DNA from: Acidobacteriota bacterium
Lineage (GTDB): Bacteria > Acidobacteriota > Vicinamibacteria > Vicinamibacterales > UBA823
Direction: 5' to 3'
DNA length: 64,000 bases
Assembly: GCA_002730525.1 (NCBI GenBank)
Contig: PCAK01000008.1
Location: 1 to 64,000, forward strand
Shown here: positions 24,223 to 53,504 of the stretch, one piece after another
Numbering within the stretch: position 1 is the first letter of the stretch
How the letters are laid out: each line of letters begins with the position of its first letter
The notes under the pieces: generated by a model
The model's input: the letters and a program-made list of their open reading frames with translations, nothing else
Databases searched by the model: none
What the model was told of the DNA's origin: nothing
Translations under genes and position numbers: made by a program

Positions 24223-25431
24223 ATGATTGGATTCGATCTCAACGAAGAGCATCGCCTGCTCGAACAGTCGGTGCGTGAGTGGGGCGCGCGTGACGTTGCC
24301 CCGAAAGTTCACGATCTCGATCGCGCGCACGAGTTCGATCCCGCGATCCTGACGCAGATGGCCGATCTGGGCCTCCTCGGCGTCTCGGTGCCGGCGGCGT
24401 ACGGCGGCGCGGGCATGGACTACGTCAGTCTGGGTCTGGCCAGCGAGGAACTGGAGTACGTCGATACGTCGTTGCGCGTCATCCTCTCGGTACACGTCGG
24501 GCTCAACTGCCTGTCGCTGCTAACGTGGGGCACCGAGGCGCAGAAACAGCAGTACCTCGTGCCGCAGGCGAAGGGCGATCGCATCGCGACCTATGGCCTC
24601 ACCGAGCCGGCCGCGGGCAGCGACGTGCGCGGGCTGCAGAGCGTGGCGATCAAGAAGGGCGACACCTATCTGCTCAGTGGCGAGAAGCAGTGGATCTCCC
24701 TGGCCGACGTGGCCGACCACTTCCTGGTCTTCGCGTGGAGCGACCTCGAGAAGAAGCAGGCACGGGACCCCTCGGGGCTGACGGCCTTCATCGTGGAGCG
24801 TGGGTTCAAGGGGTTTGCGAGCGGGACGATGAAGGAGAAGTGGGGCATCCTGGCCGGGAACACCGGCTACTTCACGATGGACGAAGTGGAGGTGCCCGCG
24901 GCGAACGTCCTGGGCGAGCCGGGCGAGGGGTTCAAGATCGCGATGTTCGCCTTGGACCAGGGCCGCTACACCGTGGCGGCGGGCGCGACCGGTCTGATAC
25001 GCGCCTGCCGCGATGCCAGTGCGGCCTACGCGAAGGAGCGGCAGGCCTTCGGCGTCGAGATCGCTCAGCATCAACTGGTCAAGCAGATGATTGCCAAGAT
25101 GGAGTCGGACTATCAGGCCTCGCGGCTCCTCTGGCTGCGGTCGGGCTGGATGAAGAACGAGGGGCGCCGGAACACCCGGGAGACCGGCCTGGCCAAGTGG
25201 TTCGCCACCGTGGCGTCGGAACGTGCGGCCGGCGACGCCGTCCAGGTGCATGGCGCGAATGGCTATTCGGACGAGTACCCCGTCGGGCGGTACTACCGCA
25301 ACTGCAAGGGGGCGGTGATCTACGAGGGGACGAGAGAGATTCACACCCTGATGCAGGCGGACTACGTGCTGGGCTACCGCTCGGATCGCCCGACCCGGTG
25401 CCAGTTGCCGGCGTACTACGCCTCGGCATAG
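24223..25431 (+). CDS. Acyl-CoA dehydrogenase, 402 aa
   Basis: An FAD enzyme that oxidises acyl-CoA thioesters. The start [20 protein letters not shown] and the FAD motif [15 protein letters not shown] are typical. The C-terminal part has [17 protein letters not shown] and the catalytic Glu region [20 protein letters not shown]. The chain-length or substrate class (short-chain, branched or glutaryl-like) cannot be fixed from sequence reading alone. An upstream in-frame ATG at 24160 lies inside the promoter region. Confidence 0.93.
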
Positions 25432-25459
25432 CACACGGGATTTCGCGGAGACGCATTCC

Positions 25460-26443
25460 ATGGACGCAGGACTCTCGCTCGATTTTCTCGGGGTCGTGGA
25501 GCAGGCGGCAATCGCCTGCGCGCAGACGATGGGGCAAGGCGACCGGCATCATTCGGACCATGTCGCGGTCGAAGCGATGCGGAAGAGGATGGACGGCGTT
25601 CCGATGGACGGCACGATTGTCATTGGGGAGGGTGAGCGCGACGAAGCGCCGATGCTCTTCATTGGCGAGAAAGTCGGCAAGGCGCTCCACGACAACGGCA
25701 CGTATCCGGCGATCGACATCGCGGTGGATCCGCTGGAAGGCACCAATCTCTGCGCGACCGGGTCGCCGAACGGCATCGCCGTGCTGGCGGCGGCGGAGCG
25801 CGGTGGACTGCTGCACGCGCCGGATCTGTACATGGAGAAGCTGGTGGTCGGCCCAAGCTGCAAGGGCGCCGTCAGCCTCGATGCGCCGGTGACCAAGAAT
25901 CTTGCCGCGATCGCCGAGTGTCTGGATCGAAAAGTTGAGGACCTGGTCATCGTCGTGCTGGAGCGCGATCGCCACGAGCAATTGATCGCCGATATTCGAG
26001 CGGCCGGCGCGCGGATCCGGCTCATCACCGACGGCGATCTGTCGGCTGGGATTTCGGCGGCGGTAGTGGGGAGCGGTGTGCACGCAGTGATGGGGACTGG
26101 TGGGGCGCCCGAAGGGGTTCTGGCCGCGGCGGCGATGCGGTGCCTCAACGGCGAGATCCTGGCGCGCCTCGTCGTCAAGAAGCCGGAGCACGAAGAGCGG
26201 TGCCGGACGATGGGGATCACCGACTTCAGCCGGGTGTACCGTGCGAACGATCTGGCATCGAGCGACTCGGTGATTTTCGCCGCGACGGGCGTCACTGAAG
26301 GGACGTTGATGGAAGGCGTCCGTTTCTTTGGCGATGGCGTGCGGACGCACTCGCTGATCATGCAGACGCGGCCGCACCGTGTGCAGTTCATCGATACGAT
26401 TCACGTGTACGAGGGCTCCCCGAACCCGCGGATCCATTTCTGA
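25460..26443 (+). CDS. glpX: Fructose-1,6-bisphosphatase class II
   Basis: A metal-dependent phosphatase of gluconeogenesis. Motifs are [15 protein letters not shown] (metal Asp/Glu), [16 protein letters not shown] (the lithium-sensitive phosphatase core) and [18 protein letters not shown]. The length of 327 is normal. It lies 28 bp after the acyl-CoA dehydrogenase gene, so carbon from fatty-acid oxidation and sugar synthesis may be jointly expressed. Confidence 0.95.
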
Positions 26444-41359: not shown

Positions 41360-43168
41360 ATGGTGCGACGCCTCTGGACCTACGCGTGGCCCTACCGCGG
41401 CCACCTGGCCGCTGCGCTGGGGGCGATGGTGCTGTTTGGTGCCGCTTCGGCAGGGCTGGCCTATCTGATCAAGCCGATCTTCGACGACGTCCTGCCGAAT
41501 CGAGAGCGGGTCGGGTTCGTGGCCGGCGCGATGCTCGGGTGCTACTTGCTGAAGGGAGTGGGGTCGTACGGCTCGACCTACTTGATGACCGGGATCGGTC
41601 AGAGAGTCGTTCGCGACGTCCGCAACCAGCTATTCCGGCACGTTGTCGGGCAGTCTGCCGGGTTCTTCACCACGTGGACCACCGGCCGTTTGATGTCGAG
41701 GGTTACCAACGACGTCCATCAGATCCAGCAGGCGGTGTCGTCGACGGTCGGCGACCTCCTGCGCGAGTCGCTCGCGCTGGTCGGGTACTGCGCGTTGCTG
41801 TTCTACATCGATGCGGGCCTGGCCCTCGTCTGCCTGACCGGAGCGCCGATCGTCGTCTATCCGCTGCTCAGGCTCGGTCAGCGGGTGCGGCGGACGAGTC
41901 GGCGGAGTCAGGAAGAACTCGAGCATCTGTCGCACATTACGGCCGAGGCGTTTACCGGCCACCGCATCGTCAAGGCCTTCAGCGCGGAGGCGTATGAGGT
42001 GGGGCGGTTCCGGGAGGCGTCGCAGCGTTTGTTCCGGATCAATATGAAGGTCACCGGTGCGATCGCCGCCCTGCCGCCGCTCATGGAGTTGCTGGGGGGA
42101 GTCGCCGTGGCGGCGGCGTTGTGGTACGGCAGCCGCGAGATTTCGGCGTCGCGACTAACCTCAGGCGAGTTCGCCTCGTTCATCGCGGCGCTGTTCATGA
42201 TGTACGGACCGGCCAAGAAGCTCAGCCGCGTGAACGCCGGTTTGCAGCAGGCCGCCGCCGCGGGCCAGCGGATCTTCGAGATGCTCGATCTGCACACGGA
42301 GGTCGTGGACCGGCCGCACGCGAAGCCCCTGGCGCCGCTTGGGCACAGTCTGGCCTTGCGCGATGTCGGGTTCAGCTATGACGGAATCGAAGGCGAGCGC
42401 ATCCTCCGCGATGTGAGCCTGATGGTCGGTGCCGGCCAAATGGTGGCGATCGTGGGGCTGAGCGGCTCGGGCAAGACGACGCTCGTGAATCTGCTGGCCA
42501 GGTTCTATGACGTGACGGATGGCGCGGTACTGCTGGACGGCGTCGACATTCGAGACGGCACGCTCAGCTCGCTGCGGTCCCAGATCGCCATGGTGACCCA
42601 GGAAACGATTCTGTTCGACGACACGATTGCGGCCAACATCGCCTACGGCAATCCGGCCGCCTCAGCGGGCGCGATCGAAGCGGCAGCTCGCACGGCGCAT
42701 GCGCACGAGTTCATCGTAGCCTTGCCGGAAGGCTACGCCACCTACGTCGGCGAGCGCGGTCAGCGATTGTCGGGTGGGCAGCGGCAGCGAATCGCCATCG
42801 CGCGGGCGCTGCTGACGAACGCACCGATTCTGATTCTGGATGAGGCAACGTCGTCGCTGGACTCAGAGTCCGAAGGACTAGTGCAGGATGCCCTGGCACG
42901 TCTCCTCACGAACCGTACGTCGTTCGTCATCGCACATCGTCTGTCCACCGTTCGACGGGCCGACGTCATCGTCGTTCTGGATCACGGCCGAATCGTCGAA
43001 GTCGGTCAGCACGATGAACTGCTCAAGCGGGACGACGGCATCTACGCCAAGCTGTACGAGATGCAGATCTTCGACCGAGTACCGCCGGGCAAACCGATGC
43101 GTGCGGTCGACGATCGCGAACCCGCGGGATCGTTCGGTGGGGTCGATGGGGAAGCTGGAGAGTCGTGA
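41360..43168 (+). CDS. ABC transporter, fused permease and ATPase (MsbA-like flippase), 602 aa
   Basis: Six N-terminal membrane helices (around residues 15-290) precede an ATPase domain with Walker A VGLSGSGKTTLVNLL, signature LSGGQRQRIAIARALL, Walker B ILILDEATSSLD and the switch His in VIAHRLSTVR. It starts 2 bp after galE. MsbA-type half-transporters move lipid A or lipid-linked glycans across the inner membrane, so it is a good candidate exporter for the product of this locus. Confidence 0.92.
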   Translation: MVRRLWTYAWPYRGHLAAALGAMVLFGAASAGLAYLIKPIFDDVLPNRERVGFVAGAMLGCYLLKGVGSYGSTYLMTGIGQRVVRDVRNQLFRHVVGQSAGFFTTWTTGRLMSRVTNDVHQIQQAVSSTVGDLLRESLALVGYCALLFYIDAGLALVCLTGAPIVVYPLLRLGQRVRRTSRRSQEELEHLSHITAEAFTGHRIVKAFSAEAYEVGRFREASQRLFRINMKVTGAIAALPPLMELLGGVAVAAALWYGSREISASRLTSGEFASFIAALFMMYGPAKKLSRVNAGLQQAAAAGQRIFEMLDLHTEVVDRPHAKPLAPLGHSLALRDVGFSYDGIEGERILRDVSLMVGAGQMVAIVGLSGSGKTTLVNLLARFYDVTDGAVLLDGVDIRDGTLSSLRSQIAMVTQETILFDDTIAANIAYGNPAASAGAIEAAARTAHAHEFIVALPEGYATYVGERGQRLSGGQRQRIAIARALLTNAPILILDEATSSLDSESEGLVQDALARLLTNRTSFVIAHRLSTVRRADVIVVLDHGRIVEVGQHDELLKRDDGIYAKLYEMQIFDRVPPGKPMRAVDDREPAGSFGGVDGEAGES

Positions 43169-43193
43169 GGTCGACGGAGGGGAGCGCGGCGTC

Positions 43194-44087
43194 ATGATTC
43201 GGTCGATGACAGGCTTCGCGAGCGTCGAGGCTGAGCATGCAGCCGTCACGCTGCGAGTGACCCTGCGCAGCGTGAACCATCGACATCTCGACCTGCAAGT
43301 TCGTCTTCCGCCGTCGATGCTCGCACTCGAACCGCAGCTGCGGGCTCTGGTGCAGTCGCGGTTGGCGCGGGGGCGGCTGGAGTTGGCGGTCAGCGCCACG
43401 TTCGTCGAGCAGCCCACCGTCGAGGTCGAGTTGAACGAGTCACTCGTGGGCTCGCTCGCGGCAGCGCTCGAGCGCGTGCGAGCTGAAGGGTTGTCCATCG
43501 GAGGGTTGACGGCCGGCGATCTGCTTCGGCTGCCGCACGCGGTGACCGTTCGGGAGCGATCGGGTGACAGCGAGGTCGCCGCCGATCCGGAGGTCGTGGA
43601 GGCTGCGTCGTCCGCGGTCAGTCGCGCGTTGGATGAGCTCATCGTGATGCGTACGTGCGAGGGGGAGTACCTGGCGGGGGATCTCGACGCGCGGTGCGGC
43701 GTCGTCCGAGGTCTGGTCGGCCAGTTGGAGGCGTCGGCCCTGCGGGGGCAGGCGGCGCTGGAGGCGCGGCTGACGGAGCGGGTGAGACAGTTGGCCGTGG
43801 ACCCCGAACCCGCGCCGGGCCTGGTAGCCCAGGAGGTCGTGAAGTGTGCCGCCCGCTCCGACGTCAACGAGGAGATCGCCCGCATGCAAGGGCACCTGTC
43901 GCACTGGCGTACGATTGCCGACGACGACGAGGCCTGCGGCCGCCGGCTGGATTTCCTGCTGCAGGAGATGAATCGGGAGGTGAACACGATCGGCTCCAAG
44001 GCGGAGGGCCTGGAGGTATCGGAGTTGATCGTTTCGGCCAAGGCGGAGCTCGAGCGTCTGCGAGAGCAGGTGCAGAACGTGGAATGA
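43194..44087 (+). CDS. yicC: YicC family endoribonuclease
   Basis: MIRSMTGFASVEAEHAAVTL opens the family's N-terminal domain with SVNHRHLDLQVRLP. The C-terminal domain shows RSDVNEEIARMQGHLSHW and RRLDFLLQEMNREVNTIGSK, the conserved metal-site block. Members are RNases that shape small-RNA levels in enterobacteria. Order yicC-gmk is widely conserved, and the stop overlaps gmk (ATGA). A longer frame from 42888 is an overlap artefact within the ABC gene. Confidence 0.93.
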   Translation: MIRSMTGFASVEAEHAAVTLRVTLRSVNHRHLDLQVRLPPSMLALEPQLRALVQSRLARGRLELAVSATFVEQPTVEVELNESLVGSLAAALERVRAEGLSIGGLTAGDLLRLPHAVTVRERSGDSEVAADPEVVEAASSAVSRALDELIVMRTCEGEYLAGDLDARCGVVRGLVGQLEASALRGQAALEARLTERVRQLAVDPEPAPGLVAQEVVKCAARSDVNEEIARMQGHLSHWRTIADDDEACGRRLDFLLQEMNREVNTIGSKAEGLEVSELIVSAKAELERLREQVQNVE

Positions 44088-52238: not shown

Positions 52239-52315
52239 CGGGATGTGGCGCAGCCTGGTAGCGCACCTGACTGGGGGTCAGGGGGCCGCCGGTTCGAATC
52301 CGGCCATCCCGACCA
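52239..52315 (+). tRNA. tRNA-Pro (anticodon GGG), CCA encoded
   Basis: Acceptor CGGGATG pairs with CATCCCG, the D arm contains GCGCAGCCTGGTAGCGC, the anticodon arm CCTGA-CTGGGGG-TCAGG gives GGG, and the T arm is CCGG-TTCGAAT-CCGG. The 3' CCA is at 52313-52315. Backbone gives way to accessory DNA immediately after it; 52316-52507 holds no clear gene, only an AT-rich stretch. Confidence 0.95.
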
Positions 52316-52507
52316 GTAAACACGGGGCTCAATCGATTCTGTCGGTTGGGCCTTGTTTCTTGTTTGGGCGCTTTGTGTAGCTTTTGTGTAACTGTTTCCA
52401 AAAAACTCTGCGCCCCGTGGCCATCCGAGGCCGCAGTCCAGCCATGCAGCACCGCTTGTGCTGAGACTCAGTCGATAGTCTGGGTTCAGTGGGGACGAGG
52501 CTTACCG

Positions 52508-52924
52508 CTACTGCGGGTGCGCGGCGTCCCACTCGCGGGCGAAGCGTTCGGCTTCGGCGATCTGGGTGGGGTTCATCTGGCCTGCAGCTCGGTCGCGACC
52601 GTCGACAGCGTGCTGCCGGTGCCCACCGGCCATTCGTGAGGCCGCGAGGTTGTACCAGATGTGCGCCTGCACGTAGTCCTGCGGGACGCCCTTGCCGTTC
52701 TGGTACATGATCGCGAGGTTGGACTGCGCCCTGGCGTCTCCCTGGTCGGCTGCGAGCCGGTACCAGCGCACCGCTTCGATGTCGTCCTGCGGGATATCCA
52801 CGCCGTAGTCGTACCAGAGCCCAAGGGTAAACTGCGCCGCTGCGTATCCCTGGCCCGCCGCCAGCCGCAACCATCGTACCGCCTCGGCATCGTCCTGCGG
52901 AACGCCGAGGCCGTTGGCATACAT
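52508..52924 (-). CDS. Sel1-repeat protein, 138 aa in this frame (probably the C-terminal half of a split gene)
   Basis: Three Sel1-like repeats are visible: ANGLGVPQDDAEAVRWLRLA, GQGYAAAQFTLGLWY, then DQGDARAQSNLAIMY. Such repeats form helical scaffolds for protein contacts. The frame stays open upstream of ATG 52924 through AKEGDAEAQRNLGVM, another repeat, back to a run of eight G at 53015-53022. There it falls out of frame with the lipoprotein module. One base less in that run would join the two into a single exported Sel1 lipoprotein. Confidence 0.75.
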   Translation of the reverse strand: MYANGLGVPQDDAEAVRWLRLAAGQGYAAAQFTLGLWYDYGVDIPQDDIEAVRWYRLAADQGDARAQSNLAIMYQNGKGVPQDYVQAHIWYNLAASRMAGGHRQHAVDGRDRAAGQMNPTQIAEAERFAREWDAAHPQ

Positions 52925-52961
52925 GACCCCGAGGTTGCGCTGCGCCTCGGCGTCGCCCTCC

Positions 52962-53417
52962 TTAGCCAGTGTCCAGCTGGTGAGGGCGTCCTGCTCGTCG
53001 CTCGACAGCAGCGTCCCCCCCCTCCTTAGCCTGTATTCGCCACAAGTGAAACTGACCTTTGTCTCTATGCTGCCTATCGAACAAGATGGTGGTCAGTGTC
53101 CCTTGCGAATCCACTTCTCGCAATCCCTCATCTATTGGCTCAAGAGAAAACACCCTCAATGCCCGCCCATAAGCCGGAACTGAGACTCTGACGCGCCCGT
53201 CCTCCTGGATGCGATACGTTCCTCCATACACCTGGTTGGATGAAAGGTCTGCAGTATCGAAGCCGAGGACATCGACTTCGGTATCGGTCTGAACGACGAG
53301 GTGCGTGCGTCCTGACACGCTCTCGTAGACCTCTCCAATCGGGAGTTGGCTAGATGAACCGCAGCCGCAAGCAGCAATAGCGACCAGGACGGCGACAGCG
53401 GCGACGAGCGGCTTCAT
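52962..53417 (-). CDS. Lipoprotein module upstream of the Sel1 repeats, 151 aa in this frame
   Basis: The signal sequence VAAVAVLVAIAACGCGSS contains a lipobox-like Cys. The next 110 residues are a small beta-rich domain (HLVVQTDTEVDVLGFDTADL and RVRVSVPAYGRALRVF). After QAKEGG the frame crosses the G8 tract (53015-53022) and the remaining 18 residues look random, whereas the other frame continues as Sel1 repeats. The native product was therefore probably one lipoprotein of about 300 residues, now split by a one-base slip. Confidence 0.7.
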   Translation of the reverse strand: MKPLVAAVAVLVAIAACGCGSSSQLPIGEVYESVSGRTHLVVQTDTEVDVLGFDTADLSSNQVYGGTYRIQEDGRVRVSVPAYGRALRVFSLEPIDEGLREVDSQGTLTTILFDRQHRDKGQFHLWRIQAKEGGDAAVERRAGRPHQLDTG

Positions 53418-53504
53418 GCGGCGCTCCTCAGGGGAACAGGGTGTAGACGTTAAGCATACCCTGCTGAGCGACAGGGAGGCGCTACGGGACAGGGTCGCCG
53501 GTCG

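Follow-up and report, generated by a model that had tools for sequence, protein, structure and literature searches.

Two frames that meet at a G tract

Within the window, by which we mean the whole stretch of 64,000 nucleotides that was analysed from an uncultured member of the Acidobacteriota, two reading frames on the minus strand meet at a run of eight consecutive G residues located exactly at 53022-53015. The upstream frame is a lipoprotein open reading frame (ORF; 52962-53417, minus strand) of 151 amino acids, which begins with an ATG at 53417 preceded by a GAGGAG ribosome-binding site and terminates with a TAA at 52964-52962. Its predicted product has the N-terminus MKPLVAAVAVLVAIAACGCGSS and consists of a signal peptide with lipobox (IAAC-G), an orphan segment of approximately 110 residues, and a tail of approximately 20 residues that is translated out of frame inside the Sel1 region; the N-terminal signal peptide and lipobox cysteine (MKPLVAAVAVLVAIAAC-GCGSS) were read off the translation by eye and are putative. 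The downstream frame (52508-53014, minus strand) has 168 codons and encodes a cap helix (SSDEQDALTSWTLAKEG), three Sel1 repeats and a conserved C-terminal tail; it is open between an upstream stop at 53095 and its own stop at 52508. The three tandem repeats span 52951-52637, in sequence that is strongly coding, and match PF08238 with E=7.3e-34 and a score of 115 bits (cut-off, 30.7).

The lipoprotein and Sel1 frames differ by a single base in register and share approximately 131 bp, a stretch in which no run of identical bases other than G8 (53015-53022, minus strand) reaches a length of four. Because the G8 run lies at the junction of two frames one base apart, a change in tract length would switch the frame. 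A 12-bp direct repeat (GGCTAAGGAGGG) is present at this junction: the first copy (53020-53031, minus strand) encodes AKEG in the lipoprotein frame, and the second (52956-52967, minus strand), positioned 64 bp downstream, encodes AKEG in the Sel1 frame.

The gene sits in a variable spot (52316-53504) that is bounded on its left, downstream of the gene, by tRNA-Pro(ggg) (52239-52315, plus strand) and on its right, upstream of the gene, by a bactofilin gene (PF04519; 53505-54059, minus strand). The bactofilin gene is conserved in a relative of the same genus (G006), with 91% identity over its last 207 bp, and between these edges the relative carries a DUF218 gene where our genome (G000) has the Sel1 lipoprotein gene. 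Neither G006 nor any other family member searched has the latter gene, and the genomes and databases searched yielded no full-length homologue and no intact allele of the whole gene; consequently, no comparison of tract length is possible. Short remnants of nearly 90% identity are found elsewhere in the same genome, corresponding to the 3' end of the gene (L013, G000:C36:78800-78868) and to its start region (L019, G000:C5:719-772), and so the decay of such genes is nothing unusual in this genome.

Evidence for a single split gene

A sequence-only reading of this DNA had noted that the two frames meet at the G tract and had proposed that they represent a single exported Sel1 lipoprotein gene; the observation is confirmed, and the proposal is well supported. 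The coordinates and the one-base offset agree, as does a switch in codon usage. We trained a codon-usage model on long ORFs of the same genome (201 kb), and its scores favour the lipoprotein frame before the G8 run and the Sel1 frame after it; the best breakpoint falls at 53013, with 71% of the breakpoint mass between 53006 and 53031. The Sel1 frame contains no ATG, GTG or TTG upstream of the first repeat, its first ATG being at 52924 and so within that repeat, and it lacks a signal peptide of its own. The export signal and start codon are therefore in a different frame from the Sel1 repeats, unlike the situation in a normal Sel1-like repeat protein. Nearly all of the Sel1 homologues that we inspected are single ORFs whose first repeat follows directly on a short linker behind a signal sequence. 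The comparison with homologues proposed in that reading thus came out in two ways, since the relatives are single exported proteins rather than two separate proteins with proper starts, but none of them has this N-terminal part.

Taken together, the frame switch at the tract, a Sel1 frame with neither start codon nor signal peptide, and the presence of only one long run in the overlap provide good support for one exported Sel1 lipoprotein gene split at G8, as far as the sequence allows. We infer that a single ancestral reading frame extended across both halves. What goes beyond chance is the coincidence of the G8 run with the frame change, and not the G8 run itself.

The affinities of the gene are with the exported Sel1-like repeat (SLR) proteins and lipoproteins of PF08238, with which it shares three canonical repeats, a cap helix before the first repeat, a conserved C-terminal tail and, on its upstream half, a signal peptide with lipobox. 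It differs from them in being split between frames and in carrying the orphan segment between lipobox and repeats, which was not seen in the relatives inspected.

The orphan N-terminal half

The upstream half is compositionally distinct, with a G+C content of 0.557 across the lipoprotein ORF compared with 0.657 for the window, and its codon bias is weak (0.9 log-odds over 70 codons). Searches of 193 genomes of the class, 396 genomes of the phylum, a GTDB contig scan, plasmids, IMG/VR, Pfam, NCBIfam and PDB sequences returned no homologue of the N-terminal segment; two weak matches were dismissed on inspection, one being a resemblance between signal peptides (L037) and the other an unrelated frame (L036). 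The segment was modelled by AlphaFold2 without an alignment at a pLDDT of 43. Given the combination of no homologue, weak codon bias and low G+C, the first half of the gene may be recently acquired or fast evolving. It could also be a non-native or barely coding segment that became joined to a 5'-truncated Sel1 gene.

The tract in its genomic context

We surveyed tracts of eight or more G by a pattern search of the genome (3.31 Mb) and of inspected stretches. Markov models of order 2-5 predict 0.6-1.0 runs of G8+/C8+ per 64 kb, and the window contains two. The genome as a whole has 46 G8+ tracts, three of them at contig ends and 43 internal, or approximately 0.8 per 64 kb. A G8 run in this genome therefore occurs at chance frequency, and the tract as such is not special. 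At least 14 other G8+ tracts are intact, in that they are read through in one well-scoring frame, and a further one lies early in dnaK, which is intact. The second G8 run of the window (18052), which has the end of a glycogen synthase-like ORF on one side and a thioredoxin gene on the other, does not clearly break anything. Loss of mismatch repair was considered as a source of tract instability and rejected, since the genome encodes both the MutS and MutL families.

Elsewhere in the genome, a gene for an outer-membrane-type protein (L070, G000:C5, ~25352-26110) has a C11 run just past its start region and a mid-gene C8 run that breaks the frame; a scan of the first half of this gene matched no Pfam family. 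Its orthologue in G006 (91% identity across the aligned part) has an unbroken frame with C6 and lacks a long run at its start. Provided that the assembly is correct, this hints that tract changes do disrupt exported-type genes in the genus. A secreted GH88-family gene (L101, G000:C31, ~42480-43700) is frame-broken twice, once at C8 and once at G7. These cases give a weak lead towards a small set of slippery surface genes in the genome. A gene for a membrane-anchored protein whose frame changes at G9 (L113, G000:C39:36085-37035) was considered as a fourth such break and rejected, the G006 alignment showing a difference of 32 bp in length at that place.

Long G runs in the G006 assembly (G13-G21) were also considered as contingency tracts and set aside, because they adjoin N gaps and provide no evidence of this. 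In one instance (L243, G006:C17, ~60290), an N gap and a G13 run lie inside the gene for the Der GTPase, which is probably an artefact in G-rich sequence. Both assemblies break at poly-G (L125, G000:C45:1-18; L242, G006:C35:5844-5859) and then continue with the identical sequence tatacggcaggcgacgaagg, upstream of a gene for a secreted protein; this is possibly a real long G tract common to the two species.

Origin of the split

In proposing an explanation for the split, we favour a recent frameshift in a Sel1 lipoprotein gene that is species-specific and resides in a variable spot beside a tRNA, and we put the probability of this reading at about 0.5. The signal peptide, orphan domain and three Sel1 repeats would together have formed one exported lipoprotein, and the one-base offset at G8 would have broken it. 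A ribosome entering at the lipoprotein start would read the 151-residue product, pass out of frame from G8 onwards and stop at 52962, so that the Sel1 scaffold would not be made. The likeliest cause would be an ordinary slippage mutation in the G run, which would leave a recent frameshift allele or incipient pseudogene. Slippage as the cause, the loss of function and recency are all conjectural to a degree; recency is suggested by both halves still being open without a second lesion. A broken allele is the simplest reading, and none of our results demonstrates a reversible on/off switch.

The sequence-only reading had named a sequencing or assembly indel as the main alternative to a switch, and in that case the true tract would have another length and the gene would be intact. 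Long G/C runs are error-prone, and the GH88-family gene on contig C31 has both of its frame breaks at homopolymers; moreover, the poly-G runs beside N gaps in G006, including that in the Der GTPase gene, indicate that such assemblies carry poly-G artefacts. Against this, 64 kb of the contig could be aligned to G006 without a convincing single-base homopolymer frameshift in any conserved gene; the odd indels in this alignment are mostly paired, near gene ends or intergenic. The clean alignment implies that the assembly can in general be relied on. Over 324 kb of contiguous DNA from our genome, one of 17 G/C runs of seven or more bases looks frame-breaking, and this is the G8 run under discussion, while many runs of G8-G9 are in frame. 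The alternative of an error is weakened by these observations and we consider it unlikely, but it retains appreciable weight.

The central claim of the earlier reading was that the tract is a candidate phase-variable switch, such that slipped-strand mispairing at G8 would toggle the Sel1 part of the lipoprotein within the population. There are grounds for such a view: the frame of a surface-type gene breaks precisely where the G run lies, the outer-membrane-type and GH88-family genes, both of exported type, are likewise broken at G/C runs, and a Sel1-domain gene of Helicobacter bizzozeronii with a mid-gene G17 run has been listed as putatively phase variable (PMC3234257). The Helicobacter case (HBZC1_10620/10630) is similar in that there, too, a G run separates a Sel1-domain gene into two annotated ORFs (PMC3234257), but the mid-gene run there is G17 compared with G8 here, the organism is unrelated, and a single sequenced allele represents our locus. 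The homopolymer contingency loci of Bordetella, Neisseria and Campylobacter likewise place a G/C run at an on/off frame junction within surface-type genes. They differ from the present case, where the tract is of chance length and frequency, mismatch repair genes are present and one tract length is known. In Bordetella, G/C runs exceed chance only when they are longer than eight bases (PMC1891110), and the G8 run occurs here at the chance rate; the other intact G8+ tracts, including that of dnaK, and the MutS and MutL genes similarly speak against instability. The tract is also in the middle of the gene, the gene is absent from G006, and no second allele of any length was found. The claim of a switch does not hold up well against these results, and we regard it as rather improbable. 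A wider version, in which the lineage has a small exported set (the Sel1 lipoprotein, the outer-membrane-type protein with C11 and C8, and the GH88-family protein) that switches by slippage at G/C runs, appears to us doubtful and no better than a long shot.

Slightly harder still to sustain is the view that the locus comprises two units, namely a complete short lipoprotein gene together with either a 5'-truncated Sel1 remnant or a Sel1 ORF that starts from the CTG at 53011 behind TAAGGAGG. This last sequence is a good Shine-Dalgarno-like element approximately 8 nt ahead of that CTG, which is in frame with the Sel1 repeats; the low-G+C orphan half does look foreign to the Sel1 half, and remnants of Sel1 genes exist elsewhere in the genome. 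However, CTG starts are rare, a product initiated at 53011 would lack a signal peptide, unlike its homologues, and the lipoprotein ORF closes with residues read from Sel1 sequence in the wrong frame, which speaks against a natural C-terminus.

Programmed ribosomal frameshifting or transcriptional slippage at G8, which would yield a minority of full-length product with the aid of the SD-like AAGGAGG directly 5' of the run, is very improbable, for the reading frame would have to move forward by one base on a G run, the AAGGAGG is also part of a plain AKEG-coding repeat that occurs again 64 bp further on, and there is no conservation available as a test.

Significance

The recent frameshift allele that we favour carries a caution for the study of phase variation, because genomes of high G+C content yield G8 runs by chance often enough for a claim of phase variation to call for evidence from reads or several strains. 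A limited literature search brought up no homopolymer contingency-locus system in the Acidobacteriota. Were the tract described here nevertheless to prove a genuine switch, the range of homopolymer contingency loci would widen to include environmental members of this phylum.
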